From the NCBI RefSeq assembly GCF_024256385.1, contig NZ_JAMLFW010000002.1:1178001-1242000 (forward strand): DNA of 64,000 bases. The letters are read 5' to 3'. A program made the position numbers and the translations under genes. This document shows positions 249 through 19,741 of this stretch, piece by piece; within the stretch, counting starts at the first letter, position 1; each line of letters starts with the position of its first letter. A model generated the notes under the pieces. That model was not told where the DNA came from and ran no database searches. It saw only the letters and a program-made list of their open reading frames with translations. Source of the stretch: Anatilimnocola floriformis (GTDB lineage Bacteria > Planctomycetota > Planctomycetia > Pirellulales > Pirellulaceae).

Positions 249-263
249 GTTTCCCGGGACACG
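249..263. promoter_or_regulatory. parS-like dyad, site 1 (GTTTCCCGGGACACG)
   Basis: One of six copies of GTKTCCCGGGAMAC in this phage. It lies between the stop of the protease/scaffold gene (274) and the capsid start (141). The layout GTTTC-nCGn-GAAAC is that of bacterial parS sites, with CACGTG replaced by CCCGGG. A role as a ParB-binding centromere or operator is inferred. Confidence 0.6.
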
Positions 264-273
264 CCCGGAACGG

Positions 274-1614
274 TTACTTCGGCAGCTTGATCGTGGCGGC
301 GAACTTCGACTGTCCGTCGCTCAAGCCGTTCATTTGCTTCGCGGCAGGTTTTGCCTCCCCGCCACTTACCGGCGTTTCTTCGCCGCGGAGAGCGCTGAGC
401 GCGGTTTCTTGGCTGCTCACCTTCTTCTTGAGCGTGGCGTTTTCCTGCTGCAGGCCGGTGGTGAACAGCGTCTGAGCTTGGGCGAAAGTTTTCCCTTCGC
501 TGAACCACACGCCGCCTTGGGGGCCGAACGCGGTGACGAACTTCTTCACCTCGGCGGCAGCCGGCGTGAGTTTGGTTTTGCCCTTCGCGCTCAGCTTGGT
601 TTTGCCGCCCTTCTTGGCCGTGTGCTTCGTGGCGTTTTGCTGGCCTTCCTCTTCGTCGGAGTCCATTTCGTCGACGGGTTCTTCCTCCGACGATTCGTCG
701 CAATCGCACTCCTCGCCATCGGGGCAATCGCAGTCTTCTTCGTCGGCTTCGTCATCGCTGTCGTCGGCTTCGTCGGTCTCGTCGTCAGCGGCCTGCTTCC
801 CTTCCTCGTCTTCGTCGTCTTCGCTGGCTTCGAATTTGGTTTTCGGCTTGCCGTTCTTACCGGCAGACAGCGCGGTCGGCTTCTTCGGCTTGCCACCTTT
901 AGCGCTCAGCGCTGCGGCCTGGCGACGGGCGTGGCGGTTGGGTTGTGGCTTGGTCCCGGACAACTTGGTCTTCTTGGTCATGGTTGACGAATCCGAAAAG
1001 GTAACGGCGACCAGGTCGCCAGGTTGGGAAGCGGAAAATTGCACAGAGGTGTTCGGGTCTTGGCCGTACGGGCAAATGGCATTGCCGCGGATCATCCAGT
1101 CTCGCGCGATCACGATGGGGCCTTCGACGTTGCCGCCGTTGACCGCGCTGGTGAATCCCTCGGGGATGAACTCGAGTACAAGCTCTTGCGGATCGAAATA
1201 GATCGATGCCTGCCACTGAAAGCCGTGATTCGCCTTGTTGATCACTTTGCTGGTGCGGTCGTTTTTTGCGTCGGGAATCAGCACCCCGCTCACCACTAGT
1301 TCACCCGTGCTGATGTCGACCTTGTCAGCGAAGCCGAGGACTTCCTTCTCGTCGTGGCAGTAATCGAAGGGGAGCTGAGCGCTCGCTTTCCGCATGCCAG
1401 AGAAGTCGTGCACGATCCGGCCGAAGTACCAGTGATCGACGGGATTGCCGCTGCGAGCGACGACAGTGATCGGCACCGTGCCATTGGCCGCGGGCGTCTC
1501 GCCGATCGCTACCGAGGCCTCGAAGCGCAGGGCGTGCGTGGGAATCTTCGCCTTGCCAGCCTTCACGGCCGCGGCGTCGAATCGCACCGCTTTTCGTTTC
1601 AGCGTTTTGGTCAC
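274..1614 (-). CDS. Phage prohead protease fused to an acidic scaffold-like region
   Basis: A 446-residue protein starting at GTG 1614, which overlaps the portal stop codon (GTGA). Residues 40-200 resemble phage prohead maturation proteases: a His in PFDYCHDEKEV (about residue 87) and a Ser in FQWQASIYFDP (about 137) are the likely catalytic pair. Residues about 250-320 are strongly acidic (runs of D/E with Cys), and the C-terminal 110 residues are Lys/Ala/Gln-rich and look like a capsid scaffold. Protease-scaffold fusions are known in tailed phages. Position between portal and capsid fits capsid assembly and maturation. The acidic Cys-containing stretch is unusual. Confidence 0.72.
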   Translation of the reverse strand: MTKTLKRKAVRFDAAAVKAGKAKIPTHALRFEASVAIGETPAANGTVPITVVARSGNPVDHWYFGRIVHDFSGMRKASAQLPFDYCHDEKEVLGFADKVDISTGELVVSGVLIPDAKNDRTSKVINKANHGFQWQASIYFDPQELVLEFIPEGFTSAVNGGNVEGPIVIARDWMIRGNAICPYGQDPNTSVQFSASQPGDLVAVTFSDSSTMTKKTKLSGTKPQPNRHARRQAAALSAKGGKPKKPTALSAGKNGKPKTKFEASEDDEDEEGKQAADDETDEADDSDDEADEEDCDCPDGEECDCDESSEEEPVDEMDSDEEEGQQNATKHTAKKGGKTKLSAKGKTKLTPAAAEVKKFVTAFGPQGGVWFSEGKTFAQAQTLFTTGLQQENATLKKKVSSQETALSALRGEETPVSGGEAKPAAKQMNGLSDGQSKFAATIKLPK

Positions 1615-3062
1615 GCAGCCACCTCGTTGATCTGAACGTTTGCCGCCGACAGATTGGTCGAGAGACCGAACCTCTCGAGGAACTTGGTTTCGCGGACGAG
1701 CTCGCGGGCGACTTCGAAGAAATCGACGCCGTACTTCTCGCGGCACACGCGCTGGCGTGAGGTGAGACCGGCGCCAATTGCGGAGATGTCCGCAGTCACT
1801 TCCTTGAGCGGATCGATCCACGGTGTGCCATTCGGCACCCACAGCCAGCGATCGAGCACGTCCTCAAGGCAAACCCCGGGCAGGCTGCCATCGAGCATCC
1901 AGAGAACACAGCGCCACCTCAGCATGGCCGAGAGCAACGCCTGCAAGTCCTGGCGTTTGATCTTCGCGCTGTCTTCGTACTGCAGCAGCGCTTGCCGCGC
2001 GCCGCTGTACGTGGTGAACGACTCGTCGAAAAAGCTATAAGGGATGTCGAGTGCTTTGAGCGCGAGGACGATCATCTGCGTCCAGAATGCTTGCGCGTTT
2101 GCGGACGGGTTGTCCGACGTCACGAACTCGAGTGAATCGTCGCCGTCGAGATTCAACTGCACGGGGCCGTTCCAATTGATGCGGCCGTATTTCGGTTGCC
2201 CGTCGTCAGCCTGGCCCTCGGCGGGTGCGGCGGTCTGCGTGAGCGGGTGGTCGTCTTTCGAGACCTTGATCACCGCGGCGAACAACTGTGCGATCTTCTC
2301 TCGCGCGAGCGCGTAGTCGAACGATTCGTAGACATCAGCCAGGCCGTTGATCGCGCTCGTGATGGAGCCGATGCCGCGGGTCTGATCGAACCGGTCGTAG
2401 TTGCCGAACCAGAACATGTTCCGCGCGGGGACCATCCGTTCGAATTGGAACTGCGAAGTGCCGCCGCCGGCGTCGGAGAATTTGCCACGTCGACAGACGC
2501 AGTACTCGAGGTGAGCTCCCCAGTCGTTCGTGCGGACGCCGTGAATGAAGTCTTCGAGCGTGTAGCCGCTCGGCAGACCACCATTCGGACTGCGGACGCG
2601 CTCGCCTTCGATGCCCTGCACTTTGCCGTTGCGGAGTCGGAGGACACCGAAGTCGCCGTTCAACACCCGCTGCAGTTCACCCATGCGAGTGAACTTGCTG
2701 CGCGAAAAGCGGCCGCTGACTTCGAACTCCCCGGCCTTCGACCAATTGGCGACGAGGCTTTCGAGTTTGTTGTTGAGCGCACGATTGCCAGTTTTGGCTT
2801 GGAAGTGAAACGTGCTGACGTAGTCGAGGTGTCGCGCAATCATCCACCGCGCAACGGTGAAGTTGCGGTAGATCTGCTGCGAAGAAGAGAGCAGCCGTTT
2901 GCGATCGCTCTGCCGCAGCGTGTCATCTTCGCTGCGGAGCATGCCGTCGCCCGTGCGACGTCGGCCCGTTTGTTTCACCGCGTCATAGCCACTGCCGACG
3001 GTATCAATGCCGGCGCTGGCAAATGTGGTGAACGAGAGATTGGGGTTGGCAGCAGCGTGCAT
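1611..3062 (-). CDS. Phage portal protein, lambda gpB-like
   Basis: A 483-residue protein beginning MHAAANPNLSF. The N-terminal third contains the pattern of lambda-type portals (DTLRQSDRKRLLSSSQQIYRN, then ARWMIARHLDYVSTF), and the middle has the GIEGERVRSP segment typical of the family. Length matches lambda-family portals. Portals form the dodecameric ring at the capsid vertex through which DNA is packaged. It follows the gpW-like gene by three bases and its stop overlaps the GTG start of the protease, an arrangement seen in lambda-like head operons. Confidence 0.85.
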   Translation of the reverse strand: MHAAANPNLSFTTFASAGIDTVGSGYDAVKQTGRRRTGDGMLRSEDDTLRQSDRKRLLSSSQQIYRNFTVARWMIARHLDYVSTFHFQAKTGNRALNNKLESLVANWSKAGEFEVSGRFSRSKFTRMGELQRVLNGDFGVLRLRNGKVQGIEGERVRSPNGGLPSGYTLEDFIHGVRTNDWGAHLEYCVCRRGKFSDAGGGTSQFQFERMVPARNMFWFGNYDRFDQTRGIGSITSAINGLADVYESFDYALAREKIAQLFAAVIKVSKDDHPLTQTAAPAEGQADDGQPKYGRINWNGPVQLNLDGDDSLEFVTSDNPSANAQAFWTQMIVLALKALDIPYSFFDESFTTYSGARQALLQYEDSAKIKRQDLQALLSAMLRWRCVLWMLDGSLPGVCLEDVLDRWLWVPNGTPWIDPLKEVTADISAIGAGLTSRQRVCREKYGVDFFEVARELVRETKFLERFGLSTNLSAANVQINEVAA

Positions 3063-3065
3063 CGC

Positions 3066-3269: not shown

Positions 3270-3284
3270 GCGTCAATTGATGGC

Positions 3285-3300
3285 CGTGTCCCGGGAAACG
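3285..3300. promoter_or_regulatory. parS-like dyad, site 2 (CGTGTCCCGGGAAACG)
   Basis: Second copy of the dispersed dyad, in the gap between the 135-residue zinc-motif protein and the gpW-like gene. It shares the 16-base form seen at 6,279-6,294. Confidence 0.6.
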
Positions 3301-3347
3301 GGCCACCGCTCGCGCGCGGATTCTCGAAGGTAATAACCAGGGTTTGG

Positions 3348-3755: not shown

Positions 3756-3799
3756 CGGTTTCCTCGGTTTTAGGGTTTGGGTTTCGGGGCTTCGGCAAG

Positions 3800-4120
3800 C
3801 TACGCGGCGGCGCTGTCGGGCAGTCCGTCCGGAGGAGTGATTTGTTGCGGTTCGTCGGGCTCGGTCGCTTCGTACACCGGCGTGCGATCGATGCGAATCT
3901 GCCCGCAGTTGAGGCACTGGCACCGGCGGAAGAGCAAGGCGCAAAACGGCGTCCCTGCGCCTTTGAACTCCCGGCGCGTCGTGTTCAGGTAAGGGCCACG
4001 CTCCGAACTCTTGCACTTCGGACAGCGGCTGGGCTCGACGTCGACGACTTCTTTCACGTTGGGCGAGCCAGGTGGCCGGCCGGTCGACCGAGGCGATTTC
4101 TTATTACGGTTCGTTGTCAT
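3800..4120 (-). CDS. Phage zinc-ribbon protein next to terminase
   Basis: A 106-residue protein beginning MTTNRNKKSPRSTGRPPGSP. Two CxxC pairs (CPKC near residue 34 and CQCLNC near residue 70) separated by a basic, aromatic segment form a zinc ribbon. The ATG lies inside the last codons of the terminase gene (17-base overlap), which argues for translational coupling. Small DNA-binding zinc ribbons near terminases may help packaging or late transcription; the actual role is unknown. Confidence 0.65.
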   Translation of the reverse strand: MTTNRNKKSPRSTGRPPGSPNVKEVVDVEPSRCPKCKSSERGPYLNTTRREFKGAGTPFCALLFRRCQCLNCGQIRIDRTPVYEATEPDEPQQITPPDGLPDSAAA

Positions 4121-6278
4121 AGAACACTCGCGTGATAGGTTTGCGTTGAGGGGGTTTAGGATTTGCCGGCGTGGCTGCAGCCGCGGCATCGGCCTTGGCC
4201 TTCACGATCGAGTTGAGCGCGGGGGCGAGCAAACGCACGCCCTTCATGCTGCCGCCGACGTCGGAGTAATAGCTGCCGTCGTTGAAGTGGTCCGCGTCGC
4301 TCTTCGACACGAACACTCGCGTGAGCTTGCCCTTGATGATTTGCTCCGCGACGACTTCCGCGCAAACTTGGTGCGCGTAGTTCTGATGCAGCTTCTCATC
4401 TGGTCCCAGCCGGCCGAGACGGTTGGCCTCCGGATCCGCTTCGCCGAAGATCAGCATGCGGCCCGGATTGCCCTCGTCCGTCATCCAGCGTTCGTGCTCG
4501 TAGCGCTTCCAGCGATCGGTGTCGGCGTAGACCAGCCAGACGCTTTTCTTCTTGCGGCCCTTCACGATCTGCGACGTGACTTCCTGACGAGTGAGAAACC
4601 AGCCGTCACCCGGCTTGCGGTCTTCGGTCTCGCGCTCCAGGTCGGTGAAGTTTGGTTTCACGCAGCCGGCAGATTTGCCGCAACCCATGATCGGGAAGAT
4701 GCCGGCACCGATGGTGAGGCAAGCCGCGTAGACCGATTGCGTTTCCCAGCCAGCGTCGACGAGCGTCAATTGCTCGTCGATGATTTCGCCGTCTTCAGTG
4801 TGGTAGCCGTCCGGACTCTCGAACTGCTCGCGGTAGTCGTCCCAGCGCTGCAGGATGGCTTTATAGATGGCCATCTCGACGCCGACGTTGCTGCCGCGCT
4901 TGGTGCCGATGACTTCCTGGATGCCGTAGTCGATCGTGTAGTACTTCGAGCCGTCGGCACTCCACGCGCGCACCACCCAGTGCAAATGTGTTTTGCGAAC
5001 GTCGATCCCGTGCGTGATGAGATTGCAGCCGCGCGGCACGCACTTGCGTTTGTGACCGCTGAGCGATTTTTGAATGTGGTGCGGAGTGATCGCCGACATG
5101 ATCGGCGCGGAGATCTCCGGAGGGTTGTTGTCGAGCTCGGTGTCGACGGCTTCCTGATTGGTTCGAGCAACTTCGCTGAAATAGTATTCGAGCGAACTGG
5201 CTTCGTCCGGAGTGAAGCGGTTTGGGTTTGCGACGACAGCGCCTGCGTCCATCGCTTTGCGGTTCGCCAAGTAGAACTCGTGCGCCTTCGTCGTCTCGGG
5301 GACGTAGTCGGCGCGCTTCATCGCGACGTACTCATCCCAAAGGTCGATGCGGTGCGGTTTCTCGATTAAGAACTTGTTGCGCCGGCCGCGAAAGCTGGGC
5401 TTTTGTTTGGGGTCGGTGTACTTGTACGAAACGCTGGTGCGACTCTGCAGCGTCGTGATCATCACACGTGCGATGCGACGTTGTTGGCCGCCGAGGCCTG
5501 CGACGCCGCGGTCGATACGTTTCTCGAGCTTGGTCGCTGCCTTTTCGTTTTCGGCCGTATCTTCGGTGTCTGGATCGTCGATGATCGCGACGTCTGGCCG
5601 CTTGCCTTTGATGTTCAAACCGCGGACCGCTGAGTCGAGCCCGCGCGTAACGATGATCGCGCCTGCAGCTGGCGAGCCCGGTACGTTTGGCATAATGATT
5701 TTACGAGTGCCGCGCCACACGAAGTGGCTCTGCTGCTCGACGAAAGGCTTCCCGTCGGCGTGGCTGTGGCCGCTGACCAGCTGCGAGTGAGCTCGCTGCG
5801 CAATTCCTTCCAACGCACGAATCGGCACGCACACTTCCGGATAGTCGGCGAGCAGCCGATCGTTCCCTTCGAGCTCCATCTTGATCGCGTCCATTCCGTC
5901 GTCAGCTCCGGGCCCGTTGGCACCGAAGATCACGGGAAACCGCGCCTTGCCTTGCAGCACGTTCTTTAGCGCCACGCGGAGACAGATCGTCGTCTTGCCC
6001 TCGCCGCGGCTCGCAGCGACGGCCTTGTCATGCCCCTTGGCAATCGACTCATCGACCGCATCGATCATCTCTCGCTGCTGCTCGGTGAACTCGTACCAGA
6101 ATGGGCTCGGTGAACCGCTGCCCTCGCCGCAATACCAACGCAGCCAGGCCTTCGTGTCGGCCTCGAACTTCTCGCGGCGCTTTCGATCAGCGCAGGGCGG
6201 GATCTCGACCAGGCGGCCTTTGCCACGCGACTGGCGTTTGCGATCGGCGTCGTTGTTGCGATCTTCGGAGCTGCTCAT
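4104..6278 (-). CDS. Terminase large subunit (DNA-packaging ATPase/nuclease)
   Basis: A 724-residue protein with the start at ATG 6278, where the stop of the upstream methyltransferase overlaps (ATGA). The ATPase half has the Walker A-like SRGEGKTT (residues about 90-97) and a Walker B VAIIDDPD. The C-terminal half shows acidic nuclease positions in HGIDVRKTH, TLVDAGWET and DHFNDG. The large size and GpA-like layout suggest a lambda-type terminase that cuts and translocates DNA into the capsid. No clear small-subunit gene is next to it; the HTH protein at 15,192-15,647 is one remote candidate. Confidence 0.85.
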   Translation of the reverse strand: MSSSEDRNNDADRKRQSRGKGRLVEIPPCADRKRREKFEADTKAWLRWYCGEGSGSPSPFWYEFTEQQREMIDAVDESIAKGHDKAVAASRGEGKTTICLRVALKNVLQGKARFPVIFGANGPGADDGMDAIKMELEGNDRLLADYPEVCVPIRALEGIAQRAHSQLVSGHSHADGKPFVEQQSHFVWRGTRKIIMPNVPGSPAAGAIIVTRGLDSAVRGLNIKGKRPDVAIIDDPDTEDTAENEKAATKLEKRIDRGVAGLGGQQRRIARVMITTLQSRTSVSYKYTDPKQKPSFRGRRNKFLIEKPHRIDLWDEYVAMKRADYVPETTKAHEFYLANRKAMDAGAVVANPNRFTPDEASSLEYYFSEVARTNQEAVDTELDNNPPEISAPIMSAITPHHIQKSLSGHKRKCVPRGCNLITHGIDVRKTHLHWVVRAWSADGSKYYTIDYGIQEVIGTKRGSNVGVEMAIYKAILQRWDDYREQFESPDGYHTEDGEIIDEQLTLVDAGWETQSVYAACLTIGAGIFPIMGCGKSAGCVKPNFTDLERETEDRKPGDGWFLTRQEVTSQIVKGRKKKSVWLVYADTDRWKRYEHERWMTDEGNPGRMLIFGEADPEANRLGRLGPDEKLHQNYAHQVCAEVVAEQIIKGKLTRVFVSKSDADHFNDGSYYSDVGGSMKGVRLLAPALNSIVKAKADAAAAATPANPKPPQRKPITRVFYDNEP

Positions 6279-7105
6279 CGTGTCCCGGGAAACGTGGCCA
6301 GGCGATGACGCGCCGTTGCATAAATATCCGGATCCCGCTCGAAGCCGAGGAATCGGCGCCCTTCGGCGGCGCATGCTTCCGCTGTCGAACCGCTGCCGCT
6401 GAAGGGGTCCACCACGAGGTCGCCTGGCTGGCTGTAAGTGCGAACCAACCAGCGGCACAGATCGTTCGGCTTTTGCGTCGGATGAATGCGCGGCCCGAAG
6501 TCGTTCATCTGCAGCACGCTCGTCGGATGCCGCGTGCCGGCGTTGTCCGCAATTTGGTTGTGCTTCGATTGGCCGTAGATCTGCGTTTGCTTTCTCACGC
6601 CACCCTTGTACGGTTTGCCGCTCGTGAACTGCGGGTTGTAAGTACTGAGTGACGGACGTCGGCAGAAAATCAACAGCAGCTCGTGCTGACGTAGCGGCTG
6701 CCGGTTGGCGTTGAAGAAGCCGACCTTTCGCGCCTTGAGCCACACCAGCTCGTAGCGAAAGTACTTGCGGGCTGACACGACCACATCGGTGGCGAACGGC
6801 TGAGCTGCGAACACGGCGACGACGCCGGCCGGCTTCAGCACGCGCCAGGTCTGTTGCCAAAACGCAACCAGGTCAATCTTGTGATCCCACCGGCAGTCGG
6901 TGCTGCCGTACGGCGGATCCGTGATGAAGGTGTCGACCGATGCATCGGGCACGTCGGCCAGCAGCTGAAAGCAATCGCCATGGCGCAAGTCGACCCCGGC
7001 CGGCAGCTCCGCGCGGTCCGATTGATTGAGCGGGTTGCGACGCTCGATCGACTTTGGGGAAAGAGCAACCACGCTGTTTTTCTGATTTCTTTTCTGAGGG
7101 TTCAT
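6275..7105 (-). CDS. DNA methyltransferase, beta-type (N6-adenine or N4-cytosine)
   Basis: A 276-residue protein beginning MNPQKRNQKNS. The catalytic motif TDPPYG is near residue 63 and the SAM-binding DPFSGSGST is near residue 240, the motif order of beta-class enzymes. Such phage methylases protect DNA from host restriction or mark packaged DNA. The last codons contain the parS-like dyad (reading TFPGTR) and the stop overlaps the terminase start. The recognition sequence cannot be deduced here. Confidence 0.85.
   Translation of the reverse strand: MNPQKRNQKNSVVALSPKSIERRNPLNQSDRAELPAGVDLRHGDCFQLLADVPDASVDTFITDPPYGSTDCRWDHKIDLVAFWQQTWRVLKPAGVVAVFAAQPFATDVVVSARKYFRYELVWLKARKVGFFNANRQPLRQHELLLIFCRRPSLSTYNPQFTSGKPYKGGVRKQTQIYGQSKHNQIADNAGTRHPTSVLQMNDFGPRIHPTQKPNDLCRWLVRTYSQPGDLVVDPFSGSGSTAEACAAEGRRFLGFERDPDIYATARHRLATFPGTR
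6279..6294. promoter_or_regulatory. parS-like dyad, site 3 (CGTGTCCCGGGAAACG)
   Basis: Identical to site 2. It sits inside the last codons of the methyltransferase, immediately before the terminase ATG, so selection for the DNA site may constrain the protein end. Confidence 0.6.
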
Positions 7106-7205: not shown

Positions 7206-7727
7206 TCAGCAGCGGCGCGAGCAGTCGCGCGGCACTGCAACCTTCACGCATTCCCACTCGGCGACGATGTTCGTCGGAGTGTCGATCGTCGCTTGCACGC
7301 GTATGACGTAGAGCGTCTCTTCGATCAGCGGAAGCGAGTGCGGCAACACTCCTCGGAACTTGCCGGGGACACCTGCATACGTCATCGGCAAGCCGTCGCC
7401 GCCGGCGATCGGTAGCATGCTTTCCTTCAGCAGGACGCTGGCCACGCACACGACGTCATACTCCTCGCCTGCGATCGTGACCGTCTCGGTGAGTAGCGTT
7501 TCTTCGCCCTCAATGTCGGCCTCGGCTCCCACGAGCCAGACGCCCACGTCGTTGCGCATCAGCAGGGTCATAGGGTGAAACTCCACAACACCGCGGATAA
7601 GAGGAGAGCAGCGCGCGCAGCCGGCAGTGATTGCAGCCGCGGGCGGCGCTGGAACGTAGATGAGCAAGTCGTCGGCGCTCGGGTCGCAGATGAATTGCTC
7701 GCTCGAATCAGGGTCGTAGATGAGCAT
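7206..7727 (-). CDS. Phage protein of unknown function, 173 aa
   Basis: Begins [20 protein letters not shown]. The frame is rich in Val/Leu/Glu with a GEEYDVVCVASVLL segment and several cysteines (a CARC motif near residue 37). Its ATG overlaps the stop of the collagen-like tail-fibre gene (TAATG), indicating translational coupling. A tail-fibre chaperone or small structural protein is possible from position only; no family was recognised. Confidence 0.6.
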   Translation of the reverse strand: MLIYDPDSSEQFICDPSADDLLIYVPAPPAAAITAGCARCSPLIRGVVEFHPMTLLMRNDVGVWLVGAEADIEGEETLLTETVTIAGEEYDVVCVASVLLKESMLPIAGGDGLPMTYAGVPGKFRGVLPHSLPLIEETLYVIRVQATIDTPTNIVAEWECVKVAVPRDCSRRC

Positions 7728-8977
7728 TACGAGGCCTTGAGCAGGCCGTAGGTTTCGAGCGCCGTCAGGATTGCGTTGACGCGAGTTATTACGTCAGTGG
7801 CGTTGGTGGCGTCGTCAATGTGGTTTTGCTGAACAACTGGCTCTGAAAAGGTTGCAAAGAATCCCAGCTCTGCGCCACGAACGGCGATTACGCCGTTGTT
7901 GATTTTAACCTTGCCGTTATCTCCACCGTCGTAGCTATAACCGGCATTAATGCTAATGTCGCCTGCGGCTCCAAGTTGGCCTTGCGATGTTATTGTGACG
8001 CTGCCTCCCTTTGCATTGCTGCCGCCAGCACCGGACCTGATAAAGACACTCCCGCCCGACTGACTGCCACTAACTCCGCTGCCACCGCCAGCGTACACGA
8101 ACACACTTCCTCCGCTTGCCCCTCCCGGCCCGCCGTCGTAAGCAGAGTAGCCGGCCCCGGAAATCAAGCTCAGCGCGCCGCCGGTAGGGGTGCTGGAATT
8201 GCCAGCTCTTGACGTCACAGTGACTAAGTTGTTGAGGTTGTAATTGGCAGCGTCAATGTTGCCGGTCCACGGAGTCTGAGAACCGCCGCTGCTTGGAGTT
8301 ACCCACTGCGTGTTGTAATCTGTGCCGTTGATCTTGCTGAGCACCTGACCAGTCGTGCCGCCCGTCGGTACACCCTGGCCATTCGCACCGGCAGACCCTG
8401 TTGCCCCAGTTGCACCTTGGGGACCTGTAGCGCCGGTGGCTCCAGCATTTCCTTGCGGACCTGTTGCACCTTGCGGCCCCGTCTCGCCTGTTGCGCCGGT
8501 CGCACCTTGAGGCCCTTGCGCTCCTGTGGTGCCGGTGGCACCTTGCGGCCCCTGCGCTCCGGTCGCTCCTGCCTGACCCTGTGCGCCAGCGGGACCGGTG
8601 GCTCCGGGAATGCCCTGCATCTGAATGAAGATCCGAGTCGCGGTGTCAGCGACGGCGATCCTGCGGATGAACCCGGTGACTGGCTGCGTCTGCGTGAGTT
8701 GACCGTCGTTGCCGATGTAGATATCACCCGTCGGAGTCCACGTCCAACCATCGTGAGTGAGCGGCCCATAGATCTGAATTCGGGCCGTCGCATTCTGCGC
8801 GGGAGCATTGAGAAGGATGCCTCGAACCACTCCGGCATGCGAGCTCGTGTCTTTGTCGGCATGCACCGCCTTCCCGCCGACAATAGCGACGGCGCGCAAG
8901 ATGGTGAGCGCTGCGTTGGCCGGATGCTCAACGGTCGGGCCGGTAGATCTTTTGTCAGTCAATCTTTTGTCAGTCAT
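7727..8977 (-). CDS. Collagen-like tail fibre protein
   Basis: A 416-residue protein starting at ATG 8977 (a GTG at 8995 within the dyad is an alternative). Residues about 105-190 are Gly-X-Y repeats such as [10 protein letters not shown] and GPQGATG, forming a collagen triple helix as in many phage fibres. After it comes a Gly/Ser-rich beta-repeat region, and the last 60 residues (from [13 protein letters not shown]) resemble C-terminal ends of phage fibres. Likely host-recognition fibre or baseplate appendage. Unusually, it lies upstream of the packaging genes rather than in a tail module. Confidence 0.8.
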
Positions 8978-8980
8978 GGT

Positions 8981-8995
8981 CGTTTCCCGGGACAC
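8981..8995. promoter_or_regulatory. parS-like dyad, site 4 (CGTTTCCCGGGACAC)
   Basis: Lies a few bases upstream of the tail-fibre start codon, in the gap after the 76-residue membrane protein gene. Same dyad as the other sites. Confidence 0.6.
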
Positions 8996-10675: not shown

Positions 10676-12513
10676 GGTTTCAAACCCTCCAGTTGTGGAT
10701 CAGCGAACAAAAGCCGTTCGGCGACGCTTTGGTAAATGCCGCGCCATTGCGCGGGGGCGACGTGCTTGCCATCCTTCAGTCGCAGGACGACGCCGTCTTC
10801 GAGCAAGCGATAGGGGAGCTTCTTCGACTCGATCGCGGCGATGAAGAATTGCTGCGCCTGTTTGTCGGTGAGGTTGCGGCCGAGCTCGAGAGCGGCCGTA
10901 CGCGGCGTGTAGCGATCGTAGAGCAGCCCCCAATACGAATCGGCCAGGCCGGCGACGGTCTCGCGCGTGGTCCGCTGATTCGTGGCGAGCTGCCCCTGTC
11001 GTTGATACGGCAGCCGCGCCAGATTGAGCGCTTCGTTGATGTCGCCGCCGTATTGGCTCGCGAGCAGCTGCAGACCGCGGACTTGATCGGGATCCGCCTT
11101 GTCGTCGATGATCGAGCCTAACCCGCGGATCGTGTCGAGCAGGTCGTTTTTGACCGGTTGCCAGCCCCAGTTCGTGGCGGTCTTCTCGTGGCAGTTCATG
11201 CAGCTGATGCCGCTGAACACCCGCGCGGTGGCAACGTTTCCCCGGACACGGTGAGCCTCGGTGTCGAATGCGACGTTGTCGGGAACGCTGGCGATCGTCG
11301 CGTCCTGGGCGTTGAACACCAGGTAGCCGAGCAAACCATTGGGCAGCGCGAAGATTGCTTCGCCGCCGTCATAGGTCTGGAAGTTGAGCGCGTTTCGGAA
11401 CGGGTCGTTGTTCGGATCCACGTTCTCTTCGCTGATGTCGAAAGTGATCGACACGAGCTGCACGCCGGCCGTCGGCGGACCGCCGGCACCAAAGAAGATC
11501 ACGATGATCCGCTGCCGACCGGTGACTCCGGATTCGAGCACAAGCGCTTTCGACTTACCGAGCTCGGGATCGAGCCGGCCGGCGATCTTCGCGATCGCTT
11601 CGCCCGTCTTGCGACTCTCGGCGGCCGCGGTCCGCAGCGTCGCTGTGAACCGCTTCGCCTTTTCGGCCGCATCATTGCCGGCAAACTCGCGGACCGTGTC
11701 CTGCAGCGTCCCTTTGATGCCGGTGATTTGATAGTACTTGCCGCGGTTCACCGTCGACATCGTCGCCGCTATGAACTCGTGCAAGTGCATGATCGGCACG
11801 CCGCTGCGGCTGAGCGAAAAGAGTTCGGCGCCAGTTGGATTGAGGTACGGTGCGGCGGCGTAGATCTCTTTCACATCGGGCGCGGTCTGCCGCGCCGGCG
11901 CTGACATCAGTCGATTGCGGAAGCGCACGGCCGTTGCCGCAAACGTCAGCTGCTTGCCGTCGACGAGCTTCGCGCGGTAGCGATCGCCGTCACGCGAGAC
12001 GAACGTGGCCTTCACCCAACCCGTGGTCAGTTGCACTTCGACGACGTCGCCGGCGGCCGGTGGTTGGTCGACGATGACGGCTGTCTCTTCACCGATCACT
12101 TTTACGAGCACGTTGAAGTAATTGTCGTGCTCGGCGAGCAGCTCGCGCGAGCGCCGCAGCTCCACGATCTGATCTTCACGAGCTGCGTACTTCGCCAGGT
12201 CGATGCGGATAAGCTTGCCGTTGCACAACCTGGTTGGCTGCACGATCGTGGCCACGCGCGAGAACGTCGAGTTGACGGCCATCGACACCTGGGCGAATCC
12301 GGAGTCGGCATCGATCCAGTCGGGCACCCACACGTAGAGAGCGCACTGCGCATCATGGGGCGAAAGAGTTTTGATGTCGTCGCGGGCAGCGCAGGCGATG
12401 TCGTGCGGTGACGTGACCGGTGTGCCGACGGGAATCTCGCGGCGTAGTTTGTACGCCCCAGCTCCTGCGTCGAGTTGTCCGATCATTGCGATCATCATCA
12501 GAACCCAGTGCAT
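10672..12513 (-). CDS. Large exported protein with CxxCH haem-binding motif
   Basis: A 613-residue protein starting at 12,513 with a short hydrophobic N-terminus (HWVLMMIAMIGQLDAGAG) suggesting export. A CMNCH motif at about 438-442 sits in GISCMNCHEKT, a typical covalent haem c site. The flanking regions contain conserved-looking Trp and Gly/Asp segments but no recognised enzyme domain. Four-base overlap with the CLECH gene shows the two are co-translated and likely act together in the periplasm. Origin from host cytochrome-like proteins is plausible. Confidence 0.65.
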   Translation of the reverse strand: MHWVLMMIAMIGQLDAGAGAYKLRREIPVGTPVTSPHDIACAARDDIKTLSPHDAQCALYVWVPDWIDADSGFAQVSMAVNSTFSRVATIVQPTRLCNGKLIRIDLAKYAAREDQIVELRRSRELLAEHDNYFNVLVKVIGEETAVIVDQPPAAGDVVEVQLTTGWVKATFVSRDGDRYRAKLVDGKQLTFAATAVRFRNRLMSAPARQTAPDVKEIYAAAPYLNPTGAELFSLSRSGVPIMHLHEFIAATMSTVNRGKYYQITGIKGTLQDTVREFAGNDAAEKAKRFTATLRTAAAESRKTGEAIAKIAGRLDPELGKSKALVLESGVTGRQRIIVIFFGAGGPPTAGVQLVSITFDISEENVDPNNDPFRNALNFQTYDGGEAIFALPNGLLGYLVFNAQDATIASVPDNVAFDTEAHRVRGNVATARVFSGISCMNCHEKTATNWGWQPVKNDLLDTIRGLGSIIDDKADPDQVRGLQLLASQYGGDINEALNLARLPYQRQGQLATNQRTTRETVAGLADSYWGLLYDRYTPRTAALELGRNLTDKQAQQFFIAAIESKKLPYRLLEDGVVLRLKDGKHVAPAQWRGIYQSVAERLLFADPQLEGLKP

Positions 12514-12529
12514 GCCGCACCCCGCGGCG

Positions 12530-12670
12530 CTATTTGAGGAAAACCGCCGGCCCGTGAACGAGTGCCACTACGAACGTTGCGGCGATGCTGAGCCCAATGA
12601 GGATGAAGGCCATGCCAAACAAAAGCAGGCCGGGCTCAGCTTTGAGAAGGAAGTCGAGGAACGTTTTCAT
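12530..12670 (-). CDS. 46-residue membrane protein
   Basis: Begins MKTFLDFLLKAEPG and is a single hydrophobic span (LLLFGMAFILIGLSIAATFVV). It starts four bases inside the end of the next upstream gene (ATG overlaps its stop), part of a run of tiny membrane proteins. Holin-like or regulatory micro-protein is possible. Confidence 0.5.
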   Translation of the reverse strand: MKTFLDFLLKAEPGLLLFGMAFILIGLSIAATFVVALVHGPAVFLK

Positions 12671-12945
12671 TTGGACCAAGCCTCGGCGATGGCTGCCACA
12701 GCGGCGACCAAGGCGATCGCGATCAACAAGACCACGATCACGCCGAGCCCGAGCGCCAGGGGAACCCACAGCGGTGAGAGCACCCAAATCCAAGTCCAAG
12801 CGATCACGTTGCAGAGTTTCAGCGTGATCAGCACGATCGTCAGCAAGCCGAAGAATCCGATGCCGCCAGACTTTTGCGATTCACGCGAGCGTGGCATTTC
12901 CTCGCGCGGAGCCGCCTCGTCCGGAAAATGAAAACGTCGCCCCAT
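12667..12945 (-). CDS. Phage membrane protein of the TMEM185-like (Fragile-X-F) family
   Basis: A 92-residue protein beginning MGRRFHFPDE. Two hydrophobic segments joined by NVIAWTWIWVLSPLWVPLAL. The pattern LK.C.VI.W.W.WVLSPLW.PL is the hallmark of the small proteins annotated in many phages as transmembrane Fragile-X-F / TMEM185-like. Function is unknown in that family. The start overlaps the stop of the 43-residue protein upstream (TGATG). Confidence 0.65.
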   Translation of the reverse strand: MGRRFHFPDEAAPREEMPRSRESQKSGGIGFFGLLTIVLITLKLCNVIAWTWIWVLSPLWVPLALGLGVIVVLLIAIALVAAVAAIAEAWSK

Positions 12946-13076
12946 CACCGTGCCCCATATATCTGCGAAAGGTGCCAAAACGAATCGAGGAAAGCCGATG
13001 CGCACCACAGCGCCGCCGTGATGATGCCGATGGCCATCACCAGGTCGAACACGTCGGTAGGATCGAGCTTGAACAT
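12945..13076 (-). CDS. 43-residue membrane micro-protein
   Basis: A short frame beginning MFKLDPTDVFDLVMAIGIIT and ending at a TGA that overlaps the next ATG. One hydrophobic helix (VFDLVMAIGIITAALWCASAFL). Because starts and stops interlock on both sides with neighbours it is likely a real gene despite its size. Unknown function. Confidence 0.5.
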   Translation of the reverse strand: MFKLDPTDVFDLVMAIGIITAALWCASAFLDSFWHLSQIYGAR

Positions 13077-13081
13077 GCGAC

Positions 13082-13345
13082 CTACGAAATCAGGGCGCGG
13101 AGTTTGGCGGAGACGCTGCGGCCGCGATCGTTCGCGGCGTTGCGTTGATCGATCGCGGCTTGCAGCTCGGCGATGTGCTCGACATCGGCCGTATTCAGCT
13201 GCTCGTTTTCGGCCACGGCCGAGTCGAGCTCGGTGGCGATCGATTCGAATTGGTTGATCGCCTGGCTGATGCGATCATTGGCAGGAACGAACAGCGTTCG
13301 CGCGATGGCGCGACCGACGGCGTTGAACGGTGAACCCTTCGGCAT
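13082..13345 (-). CDS. Small helical protein of unknown function
   Basis: An 87-residue protein beginning MPKGSPFNAVGRAIARTLFV. Residues 25-80 are a strongly helical, Glu/Ala/Gln-rich coiled coil. It lies between the metacaspase-like gene and the membrane micro-proteins on the same strand. Confidence 0.5.
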   Translation of the reverse strand: MPKGSPFNAVGRAIARTLFVPANDRISQAINQFESIATELDSAVAENEQLNTADVEHIAELQAAIDQRNAANDRGRSVSAKLRALIS

Positions 13346-13361
13346 AACAAACTTCCCTGTA

Positions 13362-14273
13362 CTACGCGGCGCGCTTGCGCCACTCTTGGCGGAACAACTC
13401 CCACTCGCCGATCGACAACTGCACGTTTGGCGGTTGCGAACCGGCTGCCGCCGGCGGCGGCGTTGGTTCAACTTCGAAGCCAGGGACGACGACGCTAAAC
13501 CATTCGTCCGAGGCGTTCATTTGCGGTGTTTGTGGGTAGAACTTCGACGGTAGTCCGCCCGGCGGGGTCCGGATCCAGCGGTACCAATCCATGAACGTTG
13601 CCGCGCCAGGCTCGAGCATTCGAAGTGAGTCGATGGCGACGCGCGACATGGCACCGTTCGCGCGGCTGCCGAACACGGCGTCGTAGCTGACCTCGTTGTC
13701 CTTGCAGCCAGAAAGATGCACCACGCCTTCAGCGATGCCGTCGGCTTCGGAGCGAGGCATGGCGCGGGAATAAAGCCTCTCGCGATGCAACGCGTGCATG
13801 CCTTGAGCGAGCATCTGGAATGGAACGAAGCGAGGCTTCGTCTTCTGTTTTTCGATGCCTCTCGCCATGCTGCCCGAATAACAGCAGTCGGTGATAAACA
13901 GCACGCGGCTGTTCGGGTCGCGTGCCTTCAGCAGCGCGTACCACTCGTCGTCGAAGATGACATTCTTGTCGAGATCGTAGGGGCAGAACAATTCGTTGCG
14001 GCCGTCGGGCTCTTGCTTCGTCGCATCGGGCTGATACGAACCGTGGCCGCTGATCTGCAGAATGAGCCAGTCTTGCGACTGCAATCGCGCGAGCGCTTCC
14101 TTCACGAAGCGGAGGATGCCGGCCTTGGTGGCCTGCTGCTCGAGCAGCAGTTCGCCACTGGTAAGAAACCGTTTGTGAGCGGCGAGCCAGTCGGTCGCAT
14201 CGTTGATGCAGCCAGCCAGCGCGTGACGGCTGTTGGCGTAGTTGATCCCGATGTAGCGACCGTGAATGGCCAT
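13362..14273 (-). CDS. Metacaspase-like cysteine peptidase (family C14) in a phage
   Basis: A 303-residue protein starting MAIHGRYIGINYANS. It shows the caspase-fold signature: GINYAN-type first strand, catalytic His77 in ILQISGHGSYQPD, and catalytic Cys131 in the DCCYSGS motif. The C-terminal 60 residues are Pro/Gln-rich and end basic. No signal peptide, so it should act in the cytoplasm or inside the virion. It is within the late-gene stretch, directly after a gene with a copy of the capsid-type regulatory element. Metacaspases in planctomycetes are common host proteins, but as a phage gene it is unusual. Substrate cannot be predicted. Confidence 0.8.
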   Translation of the reverse strand: MAIHGRYIGINYANSRHALAGCINDATDWLAAHKRFLTSGELLLEQQATKAGILRFVKEALARLQSQDWLILQISGHGSYQPDATKQEPDGRNELFCPYDLDKNVIFDDEWYALLKARDPNSRVLFITDCCYSGSMARGIEKQKTKPRFVPFQMLAQGMHALHRERLYSRAMPRSEADGIAEGVVHLSGCKDNEVSYDAVFGSRANGAMSRVAIDSLRMLEPGAATFMDWYRWIRTPPGGLPSKFYPQTPQMNASDEWFSVVVPGFEVEPTPPPAAAGSQPPNVQLSIGEWELFRQEWRKRAA

Positions 14274-14314
14274 CGCGAGAGCTCCGCGCGGAGGATGAAG
14301 AAACGGGCCGAGTG

Positions 14315-14686
14315 CTACTTGCCGAGTTGCTGCAGCAACAGAGGCAGCACTAAGCGGAAGAGCTCGATGCCGGCGTCGAGCCACCTGCCGTCGCGGGCCG
14401 GGCGATCGGCAGCACGGTGGTTGCTTTCCAGGCGAGAGATTTCATGCAGCACCGCTGCACGCATCTCGTCCGTGGTGGCCACCGACTTCGTCTTGCTGGC
14501 GATCAGCGCCTTCAGCTCGTCGGCTTTCGGCGCGATCCGTTCGAGGAACGGATTGAGAATGGCCACCTGCGCGACGCAGGTCGGAGCGGCCTTGATTTCG
14601 ACGAAGGCGTCGGCGGCATCGGCGAGGAGATCGGCGTTGGCAAGCCCGAATTGGAGATACTTGCCGTAAGTGAGAATGCTGGCCAC
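14315..14686 (-). CDS. Unknown phage protein expressed from duplicated capsid-type leader
   Basis: A 123-residue protein, start chosen at GTG 14,686 because a CGAGG ribosome site lies just upstream; longer versions extend into the 65-bp element. Sequence begins ASILTYGKYLQFGLANADLLAD, is mostly helical, and ends with a hydrophobic LFRLVLPLLLQQLGK. Resembles no family known to me. Its leader is a near copy of the leader of the major capsid gene, so it may be made at the same time and level as capsid. Confidence 0.6.
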   Translation of the reverse strand: MASILTYGKYLQFGLANADLLADAADAFVEIKAAPTCVAQVAILNPFLERIAPKADELKALIASKTKSVATTDEMRAAVLHEISRLESNHRAADRPARDGRWLDAGIELFRLVLPLLLQQLGK

Positions 14687-15191: not shown

Positions 15192-15647
15192 CTACTCGTA
15201 CGCCATCCCCTGGGAAGGACCCGTGGAAGCGTTCCTGGCCCGACATTCGACGCACGGCTCGAACATCGTCCGGTGGCCCGCGGCGCAAATGACGGGCCTC
15301 TGGACGCGTTTCGGGCGAAATTCAAGGTCGGCCGAGACGATCTGCTCTCGCAGACGGCTCACGGTGTCCTTGGAAACCCCCCGTTCGCGTGCTATTGCGC
15401 GTAAGGATCGTGTGGATTCGAACAGATCCTGCACCACTGCGGCGATCGTCTCAGGCGGCAGCGGCCAGGAGCGTCGAGCTAGCTCGAGATCGTCGGCCCA
15501 TCGATGGAGAGTCGTTTTCGACAACCCCAGCAATGACGCTGCGGTGCGGAAAGAAGCGCCGTTGCCCAACAAAGTGCGCAACGTCACCTGGGTCGCTCGT
15601 TCCTTCGTGCTGACCATGATCATGATCTCAAACCGGCCATCGGCCAT
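15192..15647 (-). CDS. Phage HTH protein with C-terminal zinc-binding tail
   Basis: A frame of 151 residues; internal Met residues at positions 9 and 11 are alternative starts. Two helix-turn-helix segments are visible: FRTAASLLGLSKTTLHRWA and LRAIARERGVSKDTVSRLREQ. The C-terminus has CAAGHRTMFEPCVECRAR, a likely zinc knuckle. The layout could serve a transcription activator or a small terminase-like DNA-binding protein; the latter would otherwise be missing from this phage. Its upstream gap contains a parS-like dyad. Confidence 0.65.
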   Translation of the reverse strand: MADGRFEIMIMVSTKERATQVTLRTLLGNGASFRTAASLLGLSKTTLHRWADDLELARRSWPLPPETIAAVVQDLFESTRSLRAIARERGVSKDTVSRLREQIVSADLEFRPKRVQRPVICAAGHRTMFEPCVECRARNASTGPSQGMAYE

Positions 15648-15682: not shown

Positions 15683-15698
15683 CGTTTCCCGGGACACG
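15683..15698. promoter_or_regulatory. parS-like dyad, site 5 (CGTTTCCCGGGACACG)
   Basis: Complete 16-base form, in the 56-base gap between the HTH gene and the next upstream gene. Confidence 0.6.
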
Positions 15699-15931: not shown

Positions 15932-15956
15932 CACCGAACCTCCAATGTGGGCCGAA

Positions 15957-16286: not shown

Positions 16287-16288
16287 GA

Positions 16289-17274: not shown

Positions 17275-17648
17275 TTCACCCCCAGCAGATGAGCAACGTT
17301 CGTCGGAATATCCATGAGACCACGACACTGGAACCGCTCGCGTTCAAATGGCTCCGCGCGGCGGAAGCAGAAACCGACTTGTCGACTGCTAGTGCATGCA
17401 CCGTGCGTGCTCAAGAGGACAAGCTCACCTGGCTCGAATCCGAAAACCGGATGCGCGATCAAGCGACCCCTGGATCGGTATAAAAACCGAAGGTCTTCGA
17501 TCGTGAGTTCCGGAGACGTCACCAGCACCGTCAGAAAGCGAGTGTCGAATGACCAATACCACTTACGCGGTGGCATTGGTGACACCGTTGGAAGAATTCG
17601 AAGCGTGGCCGCCGCCACGGTCAGCCGGAAAAAGTCGCGTCTGTTCAT
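17271..17648 (-). CDS. Unknown protein with twin-arginine-like N-terminus
   Basis: A 125-residue protein beginning MNRRDFFRLTVAAATLRIL. NRRDFFRL followed by an Ala-rich hydrophobic stretch matches the Tat export signal used widely by planctomycetes. The rest is a compact mixed fold with four Cys. Overlaps neighbours at both ends (ATGA), so it is in the early operon. A Tat-type protein in a phage early operon is unexpected; the motif might also be coincidental. Confidence 0.5.
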   Translation of the reverse strand: MNRRDFFRLTVAAATLRILPTVSPMPPRKWYWSFDTRFLTVLVTSPELTIEDLRFLYRSRGRLIAHPVFGFEPGELVLLSTHGACTSSRQVGFCFRRAEPFERERFQCRGLMDIPTNVAHLLGVK

Positions 17649-18103
17649 TTACCACCTCCGCTCGTGAGCAGCGGCAACTGCCGTGGCGACAGCCGCGGCG
17701 TTGAACCACGTGGTTCAACAAAGTCCGGATCGAAGTCTTCGTCGATCTCACCTTCGTAGGCAGGACGGACCGGGATTAGCGCGCGTGACTGCGGCTTCGG
17801 TGGTGGCGCCTTCGGCTTTGGTGGCTCTTGCAGCGCGAGCTGCACGGCCGTGACCAACGCGGCCGGCGTTGAACCTCTCACGTCGACGATCGTCACATTC
17901 GCATTGCTCACTTCGCAGAAATAGGACGCTGAGCTGTACGAACTGTTGTGGCTGCGTTGGTCATTGAACAATGCGTGAACGTAGACACGGCAGTTTACCG
18001 GCACGATCTTACCGATCTGCTCGCGAGCTTCCTCGATCGACTTCGCTTCCTTGAGCCGCCGCGCGGTGCGGTGCGTTCGGTTTCCATTTGTTCGACGGGT
18101 CAT
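17645..18103 (-). CDS. Unknown phage protein with Pro-rich linker
   Basis: Start at ATG 18,103 with AAGGAAG upstream and an overlap of the preceding stop (152 residues). Begins MTRRTNGNRTHRTARR. The N-terminal 100 residues form a small alpha/beta domain (VNCRVYVHAL, ANVTIVDVRG); then a Pro/Lys linker (EPPKPKAPPPKPQ) and a Pro-rich tail. No family recognised. Confidence 0.55.
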   Translation of the reverse strand: MTRRTNGNRTHRTARRLKEAKSIEEAREQIGKIVPVNCRVYVHALFNDQRSHNSSYSSASYFCEVSNANVTIVDVRGSTPAALVTAVQLALQEPPKPKAPPPKPQSRALIPVRPAYEGEIDEDFDPDFVEPRGSTPRLSPRQLPLLTSGGGK

Positions 18104-19212
18104 TTGCTTCCTTTCTTTGTGTTCTTCAGAGTCAAGCACTTCGGCAAATTCACCGGCTTCGCGCAAAGCGCGGCGATGATCTTCTTGCGGTTCGTTTCGC
18201 GTGCGGCGAGCGATCCGAGCTCCTTGGCCAGCTCAAGGAGCTGCTCCGTCGTAAAAATCGCGTAGAACGTTTCGAGAGCCAGGGATTTTTTGGTGTAGAG
18301 ATCCTTCCACGCGTAGGTCAGATCGATGCTGCCGGCGATTTCTTCGATCACTGCGTACGGGATGTTGGGATGCCACTTGTCTTTGTCAGGTGTGTTGAGC
18401 ACCTTGCTGCAGAACGCTGTGGCCGCAGTTGTGAGTGAGACGTTGCTCCCAGGCAGACCGGCGGTTGAGAGCAAATCCCACGCGTCCATTGCCGAGTCGT
18501 AACTGGTTCGCTTGATCGGCTTGCCGCCGGCGAGCTCGGCTGCCTCATCGACCAGCGTTACCCACGGAACACCGTTGTTTGCTGGCCATTGCCGCGATCG
18601 GACGAGGAACCACATCAACAAGCGCAACACTTCGGTCGGATCAGAATCCAGCCGCGCCGCGATGATCGACGCCAACCAGTGGTGACGCCAATTGCGAATG
18701 CGGATCTCGAGTAACTTCCGCTTGTCCTCTGCCTTTTGCTTTTGCGCGGCAGGCGATACCTTCGCGCCGGTTTTATTAGCCCGCGCTGTCTCCGCGGCCT
18801 TGCGCTTCTTTACCAGCTCGGTGACGGCCGCGTCCTGCAGCTCCTTGAACTTCACCACGTTGGTCGCGACTTCCACGTCGCCGATCTTCACGATCGCGAG
18901 CTGCTCGCGCACCTTCGGATCCTTCGTGTCGATCAAGCATCGGTGTGTGTCGTGATCGACGTACGAATAGTGGTCGCCGGTAAATTTGCGAGTGAGGTTG
19001 CGCGTCAGATTTTCAATTTGCCCCTGCAGGCTGTTTCTGCTTTCGAAGCCGTCGTGCCGTTTGAAGATCTTGTCCAGCTCACTCATCACGGGCGGCACTT
19101 CGAGCAGCGGAACGATCAGCCGAGCGAGTGACTCGGGCAGCTTGTTGTCTGCCACGCGATCAAGCCACTTCGGCGGCAGCCGCAACAGCTTGACCAGGTT
19201 GGAGTTCCTCAA
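18100..19212 (-). pseudogene. Detached C-terminal part of a ParB-like protein
   Basis: A 370-residue frame that can only start at TTG 19,212 inside the upstream gene. It begins RNSNLVKLLRLPPKWLDRVA, which matches the segment just after the helix-turn-helix of ParB/KorB proteins (..N.LRLL.LP..). The 193-residue N-terminal ParB piece ends 53 bases further on in a different frame. Together they would give one ParB with the first helices of the HTH missing. The rest of this frame has Lys/Ala-rich coils and an unrecognised C-terminal domain. It may still be translated by coupling, so pseudogene status is not certain. Confidence 0.55.
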
Positions 19213-19741
19213 TCAGCTTCGCTTGCTCGACGGCGTTTAAATCTTCGCGCTCGGCGTTATGGCTCGCCACGCGTCGACGCGCCTCGACGTCGTCGCACTC
19301 GATAACGTCGCAACGCAGCTGCTTCCACTTGAGCGACGCCGCGGCCATCCATCGAGTTTCACCGCTGATCATCTGGTACCGACCGCCGGGCATCTTGCGC
19401 ACTTCGCACGCGTCGCGCTGGCCATCGGTCTGCATGCTCGCGGCGCGGTTCTCGATCGAGGCCTTGCGCGGGTGCCTGTTGATTGGGTGACGGTCGAGAT
19501 TCTTCAGATCGATCGATACGTTGCGTTCGAGAGTCCTGGCCGGGCCCGGAGCCACGTAGATCGGCTGCGGCTTGGGTTTGGTGTCCCGGGACACGGCGTG
19601 CGGTTCTTTGCATTTGCTGCAGTACTTGCCCTTGCCGTCGTCGTCGGTCCAATCATGCATGCCGCCCTTCGGGCAATTCGCCGCGCTGGTTTTCTTATTC
19701 GGTTTCGTTTCCTTAACAGCAGTTTGGGTCGATGCAATCAT
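19160..19741 (-). CDS. ParB-like N-terminal (CTP-switch) domain with zinc ribbon
   Basis: A 193-residue protein, start ATG 19,741 overlapping the replication gene stop (ATGA). Residues 25-55 have the pattern CPKGGMHDW...YCSKC, a zinc ribbon. Residues 80-185 show ParB signatures: IDLKNLDRHPINRHP, then GETRWMAAASLKW (the GxRRxxA-type box) and REDLNAVEQAKLIEEL. After that the sequence goes out of frame (QPGQAVAAAAEVA stop) instead of entering the HTH. A parS-like dyad lies within the coding sequence at 19,581. Such ParB proteins segregate plasmid prophages or regulate phage genes. No ParA gene is visible. Confidence 0.7.
   Translation of the reverse strand: MIASTQTAVKETKPNKKTSAANCPKGGMHDWTDDDGKGKYCSKCKEPHAVSRDTKPKPQPIYVAPGPARTLERNVSIDLKNLDRHPINRHPRKASIENRAASMQTDGQRDACEVRKMPGGRYQMISGETRWMAAASLKWKQLRCDVIECDDVEARRRVASHNAEREDLNAVEQAKLIEELQPGQAVAAAAEVA
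19581..19595. promoter_or_regulatory. parS-like dyad, site 6 (perfect GTGTCCCGGGACAC)
   Basis: The only fully symmetric copy, 14 bases, inside the parB-like gene. ParB sites within or next to parB are the rule for centromeres, which supports the parS reading. Confidence 0.65.

Follow-up and report, generated by a model that had tools for sequence, protein, structure and literature searches.

Evenly spaced parS/NBS-like dyads in a planctomycete prophage and in other phages are probable loading sites of orphan ParB proteins

Why would a short parS-like dyad recur at wide intervals along an integrated phage, with one copy lying inside a parB-like gene? The question is raised by a 64,000-nucleotide stretch of the Anatilimnocola floriformis genome (contig NZ_JAMLFW010000002.1, here C2, positions 1,178,001 to 1,242,000; hereafter the window), which holds part of a prophage. 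A sequence-only reading of the window had proposed that six such dyads form a dispersed centromere like that of the phage-plasmid N15 or, alternatively, a phage-wide operator. The dyads are very likely loading sites for a ParB protein. More specifically, we give a probability of roughly 0.7 to the reading that they are the cognate loading sites, similar to parS and to the Noc-binding site (NBS), of an orphan phage ParB clamp that would cover the phage genome.

The pattern GTKTCCCGGGAMAC is matched exactly at six window positions: 249, 3286, 6280, 8982, 15684 and 19581. This confirms the six copies reported earlier, with four of their starts corrected by one. Exact matches averaged 0.00 across 100 dinucleotide-preserving shuffles of the window. 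A scan of all 17 contigs of the genome (8,932,131 bases) found exactly eight copies, all within C2:1168137-1197594, where they span 29.5 kb with neighbours 2.7-6.7 kb apart; two of them, at C2:1168137 and 1174260, lie to the left of the window. A 44-bp direct repeat of a tRNA-Arg end (C2:1167287 and 1203056) bounds a 35.8-kb prophage, so that all eight sites fall inside it and thus within 0.4 percent of the genome. The claim that the sites occur only in the phage therefore stood up to a scan of the complete phage and host genome, in which an equal density in the host was not found. With up to two mismatches, 47 places were found genome-wide versus 43 for a reversed control pattern, which confines the signal to exact copies; the sole one-mismatch copy in the genome (window 11236..11249) sits inside a 613-amino-acid open reading frame (ORF) with a CxxCH motif and may be due to chance. 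Among 149 genomes of the family, seven others hold a single copy each, and no other genome has a cluster.

The eight sites share the 14-bp form GT(T/G)TCCCGGGA(A/C)AC, with a weaker C...G flank present at six of the eight on each side. Three are perfect dyads and five pair one T-arm with one G-arm, a mixture that fits two DNA half-sites which would each be read independently. We rejected RNA hairpins as an explanation, because the unequal arms of those five sites at position 3/12 would break the RNA pair. Consensus parS is TGTTTCAC-GTGAAACA and consensus NBS is TATTTCCC-GGGAAATA (PMC7383237). The site of the window phage, which combines a parS-like first base with an NBS centre, is a dyad in the 14-16 bp range resembling both, and the earlier description of it as parS-like holds in that it belongs to the ParB/Noc-type site family. 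The parS core GTTTCACGTGAAAC itself was found outside the prophage at C1:5413234 and 5413272, beside a ParA-family gene at C1:5414577; these are the host's own system.

A minus-strand ATG follows six of the eight sites, at 1, 4, 16, 28, 36 and 107 bp. Within the window, GTTTCCCGGGACAC at 249..262 is intergenic, past the stop of a 522-amino-acid ORF, and the major capsid gene has its first ATG 107 bp further on; GTGTCCCGGGAAAC at 3286..3299 is likewise intergenic, 16 bp before the ATG of a 67-amino-acid ORF that precedes the portal gene. A second GTGTCCCGGGAAAC at 6280..6293 lies 1 bp before the likely terminase ATG (matches to the terminase family start downstream), while GTTTCCCGGGACAC recurs at 8982..8995, 4 bp before an ATG of a tail-fibre-like gene, and at 15684..15697, 36 bp before the ATG of a gene for a double helix-turn-helix protein; all of these genes are on the minus strand. 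Of the two remaining sites, one follows the stop codon of the final late gene and the other is inside parB, the latter being the perfect dyad GTGTCCCGGGACAC at 19581..19594. Activator sites far upstream of gene starts were judged unlikely, five of the eight sites being only 1-36 bp before an ATG.

The parB-like gene of the window is found in two pieces on the minus strand. The first (19160..19798) comprises an N-terminal extension and ParB_N, the CTPase fold of the ParB/Noc family (Pfam ParB_N, E 7.9e-07; PHROG ParB-like partition proteins; alignment), and the perfect dyad at 19581 does lie within its reading frame, in agreement with the sequence-only reading. The second (18100..19212), in another frame, comprises the end of the helix-turn-helix region and a C-terminal domain, as identified by alignment and by tblastn to the ParB ORFs of three relatives introduced below (G765, G373 and G610). 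The first ORF ends soon after ParB_N, before a complete helix-turn-helix, and about 30 residues of the G765 ParB have no counterpart in the two pieces. From this alignment, the gene appears broken, or mis-assembled, so that the array in the window probably persists as a relic that has lost its ligand. The helix-turn-helix is present in intact relatives, and the ParB of one of these, G610, matched Noc (7ng0, E 3e-33), Caulobacter ParB (6t1f) and KorB (8qa8) in PDB. Simple patterns for Box II and Box III residues were found in 15 of 23 relatives' ParB frames, the others being fragments or divergent. A search of viral contigs with the ParB alignment found no relatives, nor did a search of genome contigs and viral contigs with the second piece. 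Both in phage ctl617 and in the window phage, parB adjoins a gene for a replication initiator, and it lies near ssb in the Variovorax phage VarioGold, which by sequence looks like early-gene company.

Relatives of the prophage were gathered through its lambda-type portal protein (1611..3062, minus strand), not through ParB. Portal relatives were present in 39 of 392 phylum genomes (E 1e-10), in 24 of 397 class genomes (E 1e-40) and on two viral contigs. We took 28 regions around the closer ones, excluding a short contig (G804:C900) and places from the phylum search weaker than E 1e-50; genomes, contigs and regions are denoted by our own labels. A tblastn search with the called ORFs of the window phage found relatives of both ParB pieces in exactly three of the 28 regions, G765, G373 and G610. 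Dyad scans revealed dispersed parS/NBS-like words in these same three: SRTTTCCNNGGAAACG in G765, KATTTCGNNCGAAATM in G610 and TGATTNCGNNCGNAATCA in G373. By our classification, dispersed dyads thus occur in 3/3 regions with ParB versus 0/25 without (P 0.0003). A blind dyad scan that allowed two mismatches, with a reversed-sequence control, had proved useless, as codon repeats dominate it and reversal preserves them. Its replacement, with one mismatch and a pooled background, still returned codon-type words whether or not a region had ParB, and because such words reach similar P in ParB-less regions, the scans are not decisive alone. The repeat CCGGAN6TCCGG in G101, a region without ParB, was dropped, its copies having unrelated centres and flanks.

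We also counted the pattern RTTTCN4GAAAY, which covers both the arms of parS and those of NBS and was written after the scan results of a second set of regions. This second set came from a profile of the C-terminal part of ParB, which matched 19 of 397 class genomes at 28 places and, with two short matches (G787 and G630) excluded, yielded 20 further regions, one of them (B373b) holding a C-terminal fragment only. At least three sites of this pattern occur in two of the three ParB regions of the first set versus none of the 25 ParB-less regions (P 0.008), and in 9 of the 20 regions of the second set versus the same 0/25 (P 0.0002). Altogether, the 23 ParB regions contain 67 sites versus 3.4 expected, with 11 regions reaching at least three; six sites of the dyad variant peculiar to G373 come on top of this count. 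The 25 ParB-less regions contain 3 sites versus 4.8 expected, and none reaches three.

The association also holds inside one genome. In G321, a chromosomal prophage found by its portal has no sites and a separate 37,010-bp contig with ParB (G321:C2) has eight; in G701, the portal prophage has none and the ParB element has four. G321:C2 is one of two contigs in a genome rated 100 percent complete. It encodes a terminase, portal, capsid, tape measure and two integrases, and it matches the proteins of the window phage only in ParB. Another contig, G783:C124 (38,083 bp), aligns with it as a circularly permuted sequence, at 71-89 percent identity in the long blocks, and the ends of each contig meet within about 50 bp in the continuous sequence of the other. 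The permuted alignment and the meeting ends suggest that both are circular, separate phage genomes, and all eight sites lie at homologous places in the two. The motif ATTTCN4GAAAT occurs nine times in the 5.4-Mb chromosome of G321 versus eight times in these 37 kb.

If the dyads are read by ParB, their bases should go with the recognition helix. Mutagenesis by Jalal and others found that Q173 (Caulobacter numbering) prefers A1 of the site and R201 prefers C6 (PMC7383237). In our alignment, residue 173 is Q in 9/9 ParBs whose site begins with A1 and G or E in 3/3 whose site begins with G1. Base 1 of the dyad therefore follows the experimental ParB/Noc code in 12/12 aligned relatives with a known site, a count that ignores kinship and in which the site of B761b is known from a single copy and the alignment of G373 is shifted. 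R201 accompanies C6 in B843 and B489a/b, but C6 occurs without R201 in G765, B701 and B761b, so that the second rule is not general here.

The layout of the sites is regular. The nine elements with at least four sites have them spaced more evenly than expected at random (Fisher P 1.9e-10); for the window phage alone, P is 0.006, and its smallest gap of 2,702 bp has P 0.0019. Sites are spread over the element, not clustered near parB. One site usually lies inside parB itself, as in the window phage, G373, G765, G610, B321p, B783a, B783b, B843, B665, B489a/b, VarioGold and the Acidovorax phage Aval; B703 and B701 have no site inside parB. In several parB genes (for example at L147:9211-9224 and L152:19901-19914), we observed that the site coincides with the codons of a conserved I-S-G-E-I-type stretch just past the helix-turn-helix, so that the DNA signal overlaps the protein signal and the protein alone would partly lead one to expect a site there. 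As a separate observation, the two ParB elements of G489 (L165-L168) are similar and oppositely oriented, and a spacing of exactly 8,610 bp is common to the sites of both.

Dyad arrays recur in cultured phages. Searches for named phages with a ParB match gave 47 records, and then 84 with the VarioGold ParB as query, from which we examined seven (Roos over 50 of 54.3 kb). Over 39 kb, VarioGold (OP296522; its intact ParB is VG_p35) carries six GTGCANACGTNTGCAC-type dyads with 0-2 mismatches; one of them is in parB and another lies just past the capsid gene. Aval was found through the VarioGold ParB (45 percent identity over 52 percent) and was then tested for the GTGCANACGTNTGCAC pattern as a prediction; five sites match it with no more than one mismatch, and of these, too, one is in parB and one just past the capsid gene. 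The dyad of these two phages differs from that of the window phage. Two of the seven named phages thus support the association, which for Aval had been predicted beforehand.

If the phage ParB acts as ParB, Noc and KorB do, its dimer would use the helix-turn-helix to bind a dyad, then shut into a cytidine triphosphate (CTP)-gated clamp and slide away in both directions. From eight sites at intervals of about 4 kb, such clamps could cover the whole 36-kb phage genome. We infer the sliding and the coverage from the known behaviour of ParB, Noc and KorB (PMC11790492, PMC12704722) and from the even spacing. The likely purpose would be to organise, keep apart or shield free phage DNA, whether replicating or episomal, and the clamps may also exert local effects on transcription. 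Candidate purposes accordingly range over organisation or protection of free DNA, partition without ParA or with the ParA of the host, and regulation. The arrangement resembles Noc and NBS in that a ParB-family protein outside a parAB operon goes with dispersed dyads (PMC7383237), in the central CCCGGG common to the window sites and in the Q173 code of many relatives. It differs in that the protein is phage-encoded, that its sites lie on the phage with an even spacing of about 4 kb, and that its long C-terminal part falls outside the PDB matches. Orphan ParB-like proteins are enriched on mobile elements and in prophages according to a survey of the same broad protein class (PMC12704722), whose passages on these proteins describe no cognate sites on the phage genomes.

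Several observations weigh against the loading-site reading. Eleven of the 23 ParB regions have fewer than three pattern sites and no other dispersed set that we could identify, and G373, which carries a variant of its own, brings the regions below three to twelve; several of the regions without a set are short contigs or have very divergent ParBs. The blind scan gave words of similar or lower P in the ParB-less regions G087, G194, G628 and G681. We put these down to codon repeats or clustered repeats, an attribution for which G101 alone was inspected closely. The G373 dyad, which was seen in the first scan, is absent from the two best words of the scan with pooled background, and in G765 one A-arm is found in two of nine sites. 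The window phage itself has a single RTTTCN4GAAAY match, owing to variation of its arms at position 3, and its own parB lacks part of the helix-turn-helix. Our counts ignore kinship and include the close pairs B321p/B783b and B489a/B489b. Finally, five of the seven named ParB phages (DirtyBoi, HannahD, Bbif-1, ctl617 and Roos) have no accepted dyad set; a codon-like word in DirtyBoi, with log10 P of -10, was not accepted as one.

Two other explanations share ParB as the ligand, and we regard each as rather unlikely. In the first, ParB is a silencer like KorB or SopB and the dyads are phage-wide regulatory sites, that is, operators near gene starts. Six of the eight sites of the window phage lie 1-107 bp before a minus-strand ATG, and 31 of the 60 sites of the nine elements are intergenic versus 9.8 expected, an excess that counts against our reading as well, although intergenic DNA is simply freer to accommodate one. 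KorB of plasmid RK2 is a ParB-family CTP clamp with several operators (O_B) that acts at a distance, repressing promoters up to 1.5 kb away (PMC11790492), and the G610 ParB matches it in sequence. However, the sites are spaced more evenly than chance, unlike operators that follow promoters, and many are genic, including six of the nine in G765 and usually one in parB. Even spacing and genic sites thus set the array apart from KorB and O_B, for which sites tied to promoters and a clamp-locking partner are typical, and weaken the operator alternative of the sequence-only reading, which keeps some probability in the form of a KorB-like regulatory role.

The second, about equally doubtful, is that the sites form a phage-plasmid centromere of the ParABS type, such as those of P1, N15 and RedRock, and partition an episomal prophage, perhaps together with a ParA of the host. 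The centromere sites of N15 are dispersed over N15. Like the window phage, N15 is a phage with several ParB sites, the four named IR1-4 (PMC7205306); parABS of mycobacteriophages has been treated in PMC7157519. Both the protein and its sites are of the ParB/Noc type, with ParB_N, a helix-turn-helix and a dyad with a GT(T/G)TC arm like that of parS, and the two relatives that look circular and extrachromosomal carry parB and eight conserved sites. Against this, the ParA model PF13614, the only one searched, gave 95 matches in 12 genomes, the window's included, but none in the element contigs or regions; this search covered elements other than those of G839, G761, G776, G105 and G695. The consensus ParA-binding motif [LFI]G[KR]G[LFI] is absent from all 23 relatives' ParB frames and from VarioGold and Aval. 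The sites differ from parS in their CCCGGG centre, and they are dispersed instead of clustering near parAB or an origin. N15 has SopA and is a linear plasmid as a prophage, whereas the window element is integrated in tRNA-Arg, and VarioGold, which is induced by mitomycin, is flanked by a tRNA-Ser attachment site (PMC9658991). An extrachromosomal state is indicated for G321:C2 and, by the permuted alignment, for G783:C124, but not for the window element. These two relatives fit the comparison with phage-plasmids, whereas a ParABS centromere is not supported, given that the elements of the 12 genomes searched had no ParA-family gene and the ParB frames no ParA-binding motif, and given the even spread and the integration.

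We consider it very improbable that the dyads are stoperator-like or CI-type sites read by one of the two helix-turn-helix proteins of the window phage, the Cro/CI-type HTH_3 repressor-like protein (24130..24432, minus strand) or the double helix-turn-helix protein (15192..15647, minus strand), with ParB as a fellow traveller. One site does lie 36 bp upstream of the double helix-turn-helix gene, and mycobacteriophage repressors bind many sites spread across the phage genome; those stoperators are asymmetric and bound by a monomeric immunity repressor, not by ParB (PMC9283540), whereas the sites here are dyads whose presence and first base go with ParB. We rejected both proteins as ligands, since their relatives do not track the dyads: neither the 28 portal-relative regions nor the additional ParB regions tested contain a relative of the double helix-turn-helix protein, and HTH_3 relatives occur among the 28 only in G610 and in G321, whose region has no sites. 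Chance or composition, by which the dyads would be repeats of a GC-rich word, is suggested only by the compositional noise of the blind scan and has virtually no probability left, being already refuted by the empty shuffles and by the confinement of 8/8 copies to 0.4 percent of the genome.

The remainder of the prophage includes a terminase large subunit with a GpA-type nuclease domain (4104..6278, minus strand), a GP7-type capsid, a tape measure protein, a replication-initiation-like gene immediately upstream of parB (19738..20859, minus strand) and a tyrosine integrase (22674..23888, minus strand). The right attachment repeat (25056..25099, 44 bp) overlaps tRNA-Arg, its left copy at C2:1167287 being outside the window. 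A tail-fibre-type ORF (7727-8995) matches collagen-like and tail fibre PHROG families. Between the tail-fibre-like and replication genes lies a cargo-like block (9680-14384), whose ORFs include a weak Cytochrome_CBB3 match, the 613-amino-acid protein with its CxxCH haem-type motif and a caspase-domain (Peptidase_C14) protein, none of them with a relative in the 28 portal-relative regions. Both units of the double helix-turn-helix protein resemble transposase DNA-binding heads, and the protein stands alone. Beside the parB of G373, a 1,303-amino-acid ORF (L053:4908-8819) shows, by eye, leucine-rich repeats followed by a GTPase-like stretch.

Prophage ParBs without ParA are common and unexplained (survey PMC12704722), and the authors of PMC10286716 state that, to their knowledge, ParB alone occurs in no characterised phage. 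In the literature that we searched at the level of titles and abstract openings, which mostly left subscription papers aside, we found no report of genome-wide ParB sites in ParA-less phages. Orphan ParBs are now paired with probable DNA targets, both in relatives of the host and in cultured Variovorax and Acidovorax phages, which makes what was a puzzle of annotation amenable to testing and provides a natural data set on ParB-site recognition beyond parS and NBS. The similar arrays in other ParA-less ParB phages suggest that such phages coat or organise their genomes with ParB. A wider proposal, to which we give somewhat less than even odds, is that in diverse phages an orphan ParB and an evenly spaced, genome-wide loading array form a self-specific DNA coat that replaces ParA-driven partition. 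If this were true, the site of each lineage would drift with the recognition helix of its ParB, and the coat would separate self from the host and from rival phages. Together, these results raise the possibility that sliding clamps organise phage DNA in a chromatin-like manner or protect it.

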